This document shows positions 1-19,841 of a stretch of 20,593 bases of DNA, one piece after another (the stretch's first letter is position 1; each line of letters begins with the position of its first letter). Origin of the DNA: a virus; the IMG/VR virus record IMGVR_UViG_3300002488_000076, positions 4,269 through 24,861 of that record. The stretch is one strand, 5' to 3'. Below the pieces are notes generated by a model. That model searched no databases. It was not told the origin of the DNA and worked only from the letters and a program-made list of their open reading frames with translations. The translations under genes and the position numbers were made by a program.

Positions 1-758
1 GCATCTAACGTATAGTTTCCAACTGCTACGTTGAATTCACCGCCAGCTATAGCTCCTTCTAAAGCATTGTACCCTATGCCAAGATTATCACTTTCAGTAT
101 CAGGTTGTTTTATAGCATTTTTTCCTAATGCAATATTTCTAGCTCCCGTTGTTACATTTGCACCAGAATTGTCACCAACAAATACACTTGCAGTTGCTGA
201 TGTCATATCGTTACCAGCACCCGTTCCTATAACTACGTTTTCACCTCCAGTTAATACACCAGCACCAACAGCATCTTTTCCTATAATTACATTTTCAGCA
301 CCAGTTGATAAAGCTGATCCAGCATTATAACCTATTGCAACATTGCCATCACCAGAAGTCAAAGCATCAAGTGTGTAGTTACCTATGGCTACGTTATATT
401 CTCCGCCAGCAACCGAGCCACCTAGTGCATTAGAACCAATAGCCAAGTTATGATTTTCAGTATCTGCTCCATCATAAGCTAAATAGCCCATAGCTAAGAT
501 ATTACTACCTGTTGTATTTGATGTAGCGGCTTTGTAACCAACAACAGTTGCTTCACTCATACTTGTCATTTCTTCAGCGGCTTCATTACCAATTACAACA
601 TTGTAACCACTTGTAGCATTTTGTGCAGAACCAGCTAAATATCCAATGATAACATTTTCATTTGCACTTGTAGCATTTCCAAATGCATTTTTACCAATCA
701 TTACGTTTTTACTACCAGTATTCATATCAGTTCCAGCTTGTTGACCGATAGCTACATT
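1..758 (-). repeat. YadA-like coding repeats with a 363-bp super-repeat
   Basis: The tail-fibre coding sequence contains about 15 degenerate repeats of 16-18 codons centred on N-V-x-I-G. Over them lies a longer period: the segment near 2-110 aligns with 365-473 at an offset of 363 bases (121 codons). Both copies encode AGGE-[YF]-NVA-[IV]-GNYTLDA, preceded by a matching NLxIGxNAL block. The repeats are diverged at DNA level, so this is old intragenic duplication. It is not a CRISPR or a satellite. Confidence 0.75.
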
Positions 759-1142
759 TTGGTCTCCAGTTGTAATAGCATCTAAGGCATTTATTCCATA
801 AGCGGCATTAGCTTCAGCAGTGTTATCTGTTCCAGATACATCGTGAGTATAGATAGAATTATCAGCAGTATAAAAAGGAATACCATTTAAAGTTGTTGCA
901 GTTAATGTTTCAACTTTATCTGATGTTGCACCAATCGTTAAGATCTCTACGAAAGCGTCATTGTCCGAATTGCGTAAATATAATTTGTTATCGTCTGAAT
1001 CATACCACCACTGGTTTGCGTACGTCGTGGCTGGCTGTGAGTTACCAGAATTATTAGTTGCAACTGCACCTAATGCGTTGTTCAGATCTGTTCTTGTAGC
1101 TGGAAACGTCTGATTGGCTATGTTATAATCGTGTTGTGACAT
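1..1142 (-). CDS. Tail fibre / receptor-binding protein with head-type repeats (3' end beyond window)
   Basis: The frame is open from an ATG at 1142 to the left edge, giving 380 codons, and it is truncated only by the window. The start follows a strong ribosome site (AAGGAG, six bases upstream). Residues 1-70 (beginning MSQHDYNIANQTFPATRTDL, with QWW near residue 45) resemble an N-terminal module I recall from many marine phage fibres, which probably anchors the fibre to the tail. From about residue 129 the protein becomes a run of at least 15 repeats of 16-18 residues. Each is built on N-[VIL]-x-[IVLM]-G followed by xxA and a short TG or GGE turn. This is the pattern of YadA/Hep_Hag head repeats, which fold as trimeric left-handed beta rolls. 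It lies directly after the J-like gene, where side-fibre or receptor-binding genes sit in lambda-like phages. The fibre role is inferred from position and repeat type. Confidence 0.8.
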   Translation of the reverse strand, partial: MSQHDYNIANQTFPATRTDLNNALGAVATNNSGNSQPATTYANQWWYDSDDNKLYLRNSDNDAFVEILTIGATSDKVETLTATTLNGIPFYTADNSIYTHDVSGTDNTAEANAAYGINALDAITTGDQNVAIGQQAGTDMNTGSKNVMIGKNAFGNATSANENVIIGYLAGSAQNATSGYNVVIGNEAAEEMTSMSEATVVGYKAATSNTTGSNILAMGYLAYDGADTENHNLAIGSNALGGSVAGGEYNVAIGNYTLDALTSGDGNVAIGYNAGSALSTGAENVIIGKDAVGAGVLTGGENVVIGTGAGNDMTSATASVFVGDNSGANVTTGARNIALGKNAIKQPDTESDNLGIGYNALEGAIAGGEFNVAVGNYTLD

Positions 1143-4172: not shown

Positions 4173-4640
4173 TTAAACTCCATTTGCAAAAATATCACCA
4201 ATTTTTCTAAATCCTAATTTCTCATACAATGCAGATTTTCTATCTAAATCGTTTCCGTCTGCTGTTCCTATTAAACAAGGTATTAATTTTTTATTAGCAA
4301 TATCATTAAATCCTTTAACCAATGCACTTGCATTTTGATAGCTACGATGCTCTTTAGCTATATAGAAAAAAGCATCTCCTAAATATTCATTATGTGAAAA
4401 CCACCATCTTGATATGATTCCACCCATCGCACCAATTATCTTTTGATCTTCTTTTAACAATATACATAATTTATCAGCTACGATTGGTTTGATAAATTTA
4501 CTCATTAAAAACTTATCATATGGTGGATAAAGCGTTTCTGCTTCATCGTGCATACCAATCAAGAAATTAATCAGTTCAGCTATGTCAGAATCAGTTGCGT
4601 AAACTAAATTATTGTTTGTCAGTTGTTTTACCCCATTCAA
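4173..4640 (-). CDS. GNAT-family acetyltransferase-like protein in the tail operon
   Basis: The product is 155 aa with a GNAT-like layout. Residues 12-35 form a first strand and helix (VYATDSDIAELINFL, then MHDEAE). Residues 58-75 give the central strands (LCILLKEDQKIIGAMGG). Residues 85-110 hold the strand and helix that would bind acetyl-CoA (DAFFYIAKEHRSYQNASALV). The C-terminal ALYEKLGFRKIG is a classic GNAT ending. The usual Q/R-x-x-G-x-G/A loop is degenerate (EHRSYQNASA). The likely start is a TTG at 4640, which overlaps the previous gene by 32 bases with no clear ribosome site; the first ATG, at residue 30, would remove the first strand. It occupies about the place of lambda K, between hub and tip genes. 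Its substrate is unknown, and a role in modifying a tail protein or the host surface is speculation. Confidence 0.65.
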   Translation of the reverse strand: MNGVKQLTNNNLVYATDSDIAELINFLIGMHDEAETLYPPYDKFLMSKFIKPIVADKLCILLKEDQKIIGAMGGIISRWWFSHNEYLGDAFFYIAKEHRSYQNASALVKGFNDIANKKLIPCLIGTADGNDLDRKSALYEKLGFRKIGDIFANGV

Positions 4641-18953: not shown

Positions 18954-19841
18954 TCAGTCGATTAAATTTTTAGGATATTGCTTTAATGGTAATTTAAAAC
19001 TGTTAAATATTTGTTTTTTATCATTTTTATCTGCGTGAATATAAATATATCTATGTTTACCTTTTATCTCTATTTTTCTTAAATTTAATTTTTTAATTAT
19101 TTCATTTCTATCCGCAACCAATTTATAATTCATCATTTGCAAATCATAAGTATCATTAAAACCTAAAATTGTTTTTAATTTTATCCAATCATCAACTTTG
19201 GGAAAACTAAATCCTTTGTCTAATCTAAACCAATGAGCCGCAGTATCTTTATAACCAAAAATAGTGTCTAAATCTTTGTTTTTAAAGTTTTTTTTATTAT
19301 TTCTTAAAAAGATAGCAATATCTTTTCTGTTAATTTTATCTTCATCAATTCTTCTTTTAACTAAATTAACTTTTATTTTATTATCTTTTTGATAATGACC
19401 AATTTTCCTAAAATGAAATTCTTTCCCTTTAGAATCAATAAATTGATAATTATTAAGTGTTGCTCCTGTATAAATAAAATTTGTTGCTTGATACAATATT
19501 CCTAAATGATTTTGGTTTTGATCCGCAAATGAAACAATAATAGTTGGTTTTTTAAGCAGTTTTATTGATTTAGAGATTAAAAATGATCCTTCATTTTTAA
19601 GGTTATTTTTTAAAACTAATCTATTTAATTCAATTACTTTGTTTTTAAATTTTTTACCAGCTATGGAAGCTGACAAAGTTGGTGAAGGTGGTTGTCCAAA
19701 TGTAACCACTCCAACTAATTTTTCTTTATAAAATAATCCAAAAGAATAACTAATGCTTGGCATACGCTTTGCATAATGTATATCTAATATAAAAGGTTTT
19801 GTTGCATTATAAGAAATATGTTGAACAGAATAACCATTCAT
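18954..19841 (-). CDS. Mom-like DNA modification protein with an inserted methyltransferase-associated domain
   Basis: The product is 295 aa. Residues 21-56 (IHYAKRMPS, then FGLFYKEKLVGVVTFGQPPS), 71-93 (ELNRLVLKNN, SFLISKSI) and 104-126 (FADQNQNHLGILYQATNFIY) fit the Mom family, a GNAT-like fold. In phage Mu, Mom changes adenine to an N6-methylcarbamoyl form that protects phage DNA from restriction. Residues 138-150 (SKGKEFHFRKIGH) and 257-291 (HRYIYIH, then QYPK) look like the rest of the same fold. Between them, residues about 170-240 (DLDTIFGYKDTAAHWF, then SFPKVDDWIKLKTILGF) form a helical domain I associate with phage DNA methyltransferases. The ATG overlaps the upstream stop (ATGA) with AGGA upstream. 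It is clearly more AT-rich than its neighbours, suggesting transfer. The modification chemistry here is inferred, not shown. Confidence 0.7.
   Translation of the reverse strand: MNGYSVQHISYNATKPFILDIHYAKRMPSISYSFGLFYKEKLVGVVTFGQPPSPTLSASIAGKKFKNKVIELNRLVLKNNLKNEGSFLISKSIKLLKKPTIIVSFADQNQNHLGILYQATNFIYTGATLNNYQFIDSKGKEFHFRKIGHYQKDNKIKVNLVKRRIDEDKINRKDIAIFLRNNKKNFKNKDLDTIFGYKDTAAHWFRLDKGFSFPKVDDWIKLKTILGFNDTYDLQMMNYKLVADRNEIIKKLNLRKIEIKGKHRYIYIHADKNDKKQIFNSFKLPLKQYPKNLID

Follow-up and report, generated by a model that had tools for sequence, protein, structure and literature searches.

A predicted helix-turn-helix module inserted in a phage Mom protein has homologs in C5- and N4/N6-DNA methyltransferases

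A gene of a tailed phage encodes a Mom-like DNA modification protein that is interrupted by an additional segment, which raises the question of what this segment is and what it might do for the enzyme. Modification of adenine in DNA by methylcarbamoyl transfer is the activity expected of the Mom family. We know of no established account of how Mom picks its sites, and we know of no Mom-DNA structure that would show which loop reads DNA. Both the catalytic and the protective role of Mu Mom have been established (reviewed in PMC7824862), and fusions of Mom to nucleases with the REase fold have been reported from jumbo phages (PMC7824862).

The gene lies in a window of 20,593 nucleotides (the whole stretch of DNA that was analysed), corresponding to positions 4,269 to 24,861 of the IMG/VR record IMGVR_UViG_3300002488_000076. 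The source record has 24,861 bases and represents a tailed phage whose genes include those for terminase, portal, head and tail. A protein resembling a GNAT acetyltransferase is encoded among the tail genes (window 4173–4640, minus strand), and a fibre-like protein with many repeats of the type NVAIGNYTLDALTSGDGNVAIG is encoded at window 3–1142 (minus strand).

The open reading frame of the Mom-like protein begins with ATG and has a product of 295 aa. Mom was the only family found in the Pfam scan of the whole protein (PF25680, residues 4–168, E 1.3e-36, 126.6 bits against a cut-off of 27.1). The protein also matched PHROG_1384, 'Mom-like DNA modification protein' (E 8.7e-55), and its sole match among the PDB sequences was Mu Mom (8bv8, E 8e-10). 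All Mom-like motifs quoted in the initial annotation are present as well, and its assignment of the protein to Mom is confirmed by these matches. The same annotation had proposed that the Mom is split by an inserted segment, with the two halves belonging to one GNAT-like fold. This was found to be the case both by alignment and by structure prediction.

Relatives of the window Mom are encoded in 60 IMG/VR loci. Those without an insert, most of them 195–220 aa long, align to residues 1 to ≈145 and then to residues ≈261–291 (HRYIYIH...YPK), so that the Mom core is directly followed by the KHRYIY...YPK ending. As these relatives align to both ends, the two halves form a unit into which the middle has been inserted. 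In the AlphaFold2 model of the window Mom, computed from 51 relatives (pLDDT 93.2, pTM 0.77), both halves form a single Mom/GNAT fold, from which the insert stands apart as a separate helical module. Foldseek gave both Mu Mom chains of 8bv8 as the best PDB matches of this model (E 1.5e-9, TM 0.70 by target). The alignment has 298 columns for a target of 202 residues, as expected if ≈100 residues interrupt one fold.

In an alignment of 51 relatives, R74, S86, D107, Y117 and H143 are invariant, and so are K262, R264, Y265 and Y289 in the C-terminal part. The equivalents of R74, D107 and Y117 in Mu Mom are R102, D140 and Y150 (chain numbering), while H143 aligns with a His of Mu Mom. Assuming a shift of +9 in the chain numbering, S86 would fall at the probable position of the S124A change that inactivates Mu Mom. 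By homology to Mu Mom we infer that the window Mom is catalytically active and has an anti-restriction role. The GNAT core would do the chemistry, presumably N6 acylation of adenine as in Mu, and the modified adenine would shield the phage DNA from restriction. The coordinates of all features are collected in Table 1.

Table 1. Features of the Mom locus in the window, with the evidence for each.
Feature	Position	Strand	Evidence
Mom-family DNA modification gene with inserted, predicted helix-turn-helix (HTH) module	18954..19841	(-)	ORF, PF25680, PHROG_1384, 8bv8
N-terminal part of Mom/GNAT core, residues 1–143, up to invariant His143, which borders the variable loop	19413..19841	(-)	alignment of 51 relatives; H143 against Mu Mom
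Stretch with invariant R74 and S86	19584..19622	(-)	alignment; Mu chain R102, probable S124A site
Stretch with invariant D107 and Y117	19491..19523	(-)	alignment; Mu chain D140, Y150
Variable segment, residues 144–261, replacing the short loop of other Moms	19059..19412	(-)	alignment with short-loop Moms
Predicted HTH module, residues 157–246, common to C5- and N4/N6-DNA methyltransferases	19104..19373	(-)	profile scans, hhalign, fold comparison
Predicted helix-turn-helix, residues 188–207	19221..19280	(-)	DSSP of model; HWFRxD conservation
C-terminal closing part of Mom fold, residues 262–291, KHRYIY...YPK	18969..19058	(-)	same ending in insert-less Moms; invariant residues
Unit missing from near-identical phages (empty sites L384, L387, L392)	18971..19841	(-)	blastn against neighbours

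The module is located behind the invariant His143, where most relatives have a short loop instead. The segment of 70–90 residues placed at residues 165–245 by the initial annotation is present, but its limits were too narrow: the variable segment extends over residues ≈144–261, with a module core of ≈90 residues at 157–246. The description of this segment as a methyltransferase-type domain proved misleading. No methyltransferase motif was found in the insert, and the Pfam scan gave no sign of the AdoMet-binding and catalytic motifs of PF00145 and PF01555. A methyltransferase catalytic domain inside Mom could therefore be ruled out, as there was no motif and no family match. Some Moms are even longer, with ≈440 aa (L139:2122–3453, L143:43–1359 and L145:2149–3471), and in L139 and L143 an extra YunG-like domain (PF24585, phrog_12251) lies between the core and the HTH module.

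The structure predicted for the module alone (pLDDT 88.5) has five helices between two strands, and DSSP analysis of the window Mom model gives helices at residues 188–195 and 201–204. The nearest PDB folds of the module are mostly DNA binders with an HTH of the Xre/Cro type, with scores that are weak (best E 0.17) though in agreement with each other. The weak Pfam matches of the modules are likewise mainly to HTH families, most commonly homeodomain, sigma-70 region 4 and HTH_3. The insert alone matched no Pfam family, Pfam contains no model of the module, none was returned by the PHROG and NCBIfam scans of the window protein, and the module profile gave only chance-level matches against the PDB sequences. 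HWFRxD is nearly invariant across 60 modules, and in the predicted recognition helix each class of module-bearing enzymes has a conserved sequence, e.g., GYKDTAAHWFR in most Moms. We predict from the models that the module is an uncatalogued Xre-like helix-turn-helix.

The initial annotation had likened this segment to parts of phage DNA methyltransferases (MTases), and this kinship is borne out. When the insert alone was compared with the phage collection, 19 of the 24 matched records were annotated as DNA methylase or methyltransferase, the other five being hypothetical or unannotated. Named carriers include the N4/N6-MTase of Staphylococcus phage Alsa_2 and the C5-MTases of Pelagibacter phages HTVC309P and HTVC134P and of Bacillus phage CM1. 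Collection scans with module alignments gave 59 Mom, 71 C5-MTase and 26 N4/N6-MTase distinct ORFs with the module, with classes assigned by motif patterns and checked with Pfam on a sample. Another 46 module ORFs were left unclassified and are mainly MTase or Mom fragments or apparent C-terminal halves of split C5-MTases; the latter look like such halves by their motifs, as L375 had no Pfam match. Profile-profile comparison with hhalign relates the Mom modules to those of the C5-MTases (E 1.3e-19) and of the N4/N6-MTases (E 2.6e-18), and these two to each other (E 2.2e-14).

An assembly chimera is ruled out by the number of distinct module-bearing Mom ORFs, which come from many contigs. With dozens of module ORFs in three classes, the arrangement is neither an assembly error nor unique. 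Among the classifiable module ORFs we found no carrier outside DNA-modification genes. In the bacterial genome collection a narrow search pattern gave one match, a C5-MTase of an uncultured Clostridium. Stand-alone ORFs of 135–137 aa with the module and TRD-like remnants were seen directly before a C5-MTase gene (L203:2962–3366 and L207:2944–3354) and are possibly decayed copies or cassette donors.

In all C5-MTases in which motifs VIII and IX were both recognizable, the module is located between the two, i.e., in the variable/TRD region. Location in a variable region, as for a TRD, is thus seen both in the C5-MTases and in Mom, where the module occupies the swapped loop (see below). In the C5-MTases L063–L065 a TL-type element as in ordinary TRDs still follows the module, which may therefore supplement rather than replace the normal TRD. 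In the N4/N6-MTases L269, L271, L272 and L273 the module is found between the catalytic part, with motif IV, and motif X, a place at which L277 and other close homologs lack an insert. Most of a further N4/N6 set has the same position before motif X, while in L141, L304, L305 and L325 the module lies between motifs X and I. This is outside the usual place of a TRD and counts against a role of the module as a target-recognition cassette.

The short-loop Moms have a few sharply different loop types, and some of these have been exchanged between near-identical genes. Between L041 (1930–2024) and L059 ≈94 bp of the loop are completely different, whereas the sequences outside it, in the gene and beyond, are mostly 90–100% identical per 60 bases. 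Overall, these two phages are ≈95% identical in and around mom, with 94% identity in the core and 16% in the loop. Quick trees were made of the core (≈156 columns) and of the module (≈100 columns), with many forks unresolved in both. In the core tree, the window Mom and L091 are placed within a set of 30 short-loop Moms (support 97) and are separated from the main group of Moms with the module. Presence of the module on this tree is patchy, needing three changes, with carriers in no fewer than two distinct Mom lineages. L091 and L270 are 80% identical in the loop/module region but only 52% in the core, and the module tree has the L141 module, which is from an N4/N6-MTase, nested within those of Moms. 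Taken together, these comparisons of sequences and trees point to recombination of the internal cassette between Moms, and probably also between enzyme classes.

Patchy distribution on the core tree would also suit a mobile domain, neutral or selfish, that inserts wherever a loop of a phage protein tolerates it, and so would the YunG-like domain that can be inserted beside the module. Such a domain would hardly be expected to show the strong conservation seen over dozens of sequences, to lie in a like position each time and to have only DNA-modifying enzymes as its classifiable carriers. Endonuclease or intein features are also lacking, and we consider this origin very improbable.

The mom gene as a whole is optional cargo. 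In the three near-identical phages with empty sites (Table 1) the flanks are 88–97% identical by blastn and there is no mom, the replication-protein gene (window 19842) being directly followed by the next gene (window 18970). Other related phages have a short-loop Mom (L389) or a TET-associated glycosyltransferase (TAGT, PF20691; L397:343–1473) at the mom site. Exchange of one DNA-modification gene for another at the same site fits protection against changing host restriction. In several phages a Mom with the module and a short Mom are encoded in tandem, and such neighbors, differing in their loops, would be redundant if they had the same specificity. L099:2581–4795 has three consecutive Mom genes, of which two encode short-loop Moms and one a Mom with the module.

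Mom genes can also adjoin MTase genes, as in Alsa_2 and P12002L, and in Alsa_2 it is the module-bearing N4/N6-MTase that adjoins the phage's own short Mom. Such neighbors would agree with the suggestion of the initial annotation that the insert couples Mom to methylation, either by recruiting an MTase or by reading methylated DNA. No MTase gene was recognized in the window, the insert lacks MTase motifs, and the module is found in MTases themselves, where recruitment makes little sense. We found nothing in support of this coupling and regard it as scarcely credible.

The other guess of the initial annotation, a target recognition of its own, is the better supported of the two, given the predicted HTH, the location in the TRD region of C5-MTases and the swapped Mom loop. 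From these features we infer that the module binds DNA and confers sequence specificity. Our favored reading, which we consider probable, is that the module is an interchangeable target-recognition cassette common to three DNA-modification chemistries. The HTH module would dock on DNA and determine, or contribute to, which sequences the Mom core prefers, and the same cassette would have the same job in phage C5- and N4/N6-MTases. Recombination would carry it between Mom cores and between enzyme types.

A different role could be that of a DNA-affinity or processivity tether or of a dimerization part that makes no choice of sequence itself, with the preference set by the Mom core together with the remainder of the loop. 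Within each class the predicted recognition helix shows strong conservation, unlike a fast-varying TRD, and could thus serve a fixed site or general DNA affinity; moreover, what seems to be an ordinary TRD element still follows the module in the C5-MTases that were read. Yet the position of the module is precisely that of the loop in which near-identical Moms have undergone exchange, and the tandem Moms with different loops favor a role in specificity. A tether or dimerization part therefore seems unlikely to us.

Control of expression has to be considered as well. Mom is controlled by Com and Dam in Mu, and some MTases with N-terminal HTH parts bind their own operator. The module might in the same way let the enzyme bind its own operator and limit its own production, replacing the Com/Dam control. 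To our knowledge, the control HTHs of known MTases are all terminal, which counts against such autoregulation, as does the location of the module inside the catalytic fold of Mom and in the specificity zone of the C5-MTases. The nearest folds of the module are repressor-like Xre domains, Aca1 and C.AhdI included, and mom is under tight control in phage Mu with involvement of Com (PMC6483171), but we still find autoregulation improbable.

From the distribution of the module it would seem that phages use a single plug-in module for DNA reading in enzymes with different DNA-modifying chemistries. In the wider form of the cassette reading, a movable specificity cassette would serve at least three unrelated chemistries, and a phage lineage could switch to another chemical mark at an unchanged target site, or keep the mark and change the site. 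This we put forward tentatively, as a possibility about which we have some doubt. If the module is a common recognition cassette, then in DNA modification by phages the recognition can be separated from the chemistry. Such separability would explain how phages can quickly change their protective mark, and with the module there would be a naturally evolved part for targeting diverse DNA-modifying enzymes. Both the loop exchange and the Mom variants with an HTH also offer a direct handle on the site choice of Mom.

The Mom family and HTH domains have been described before, as has the exchange of TRDs in methyltransferases. In the literature that could be searched, which comprised open-licence papers only, we could not find a description of an HTH insert in Mom or in the TRDs of MTases, nor of one module across three modification chemistries.

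Like Mu Mom and the PF25680 family, the window Mom has a GNAT-type core with invariant R, S, D, Y, and H residues and a C-terminal closing segment. Most Mom relatives have ≈30–55 residues where the window Mom has 133 (residues 129–261, HTH module included). Among the nearest solved folds of the module are Aca1 (Aca1-DNA), HipB and the lambda repressor, with TM ≈0.6 by target length. Unlike the Xre/Cro repressors, to which it has no significant sequence match, the module has its own flanking strands and the signature HWFRxD...FP...W. The C5-MTases (CM1, HTVC309P, HTVC134P and many IMG/VR contigs) have a homologous module with ≈30% identity, while their catalytic fold and chemistry are unrelated to Mom. 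The N4/N6-MTases (Alsa_2, L272, L273 and L141) also combine a homologous module with a catalytic fold unrelated to Mom, and in L141 the module, inserted between motifs X and I, is 66% identical to the Mom module.
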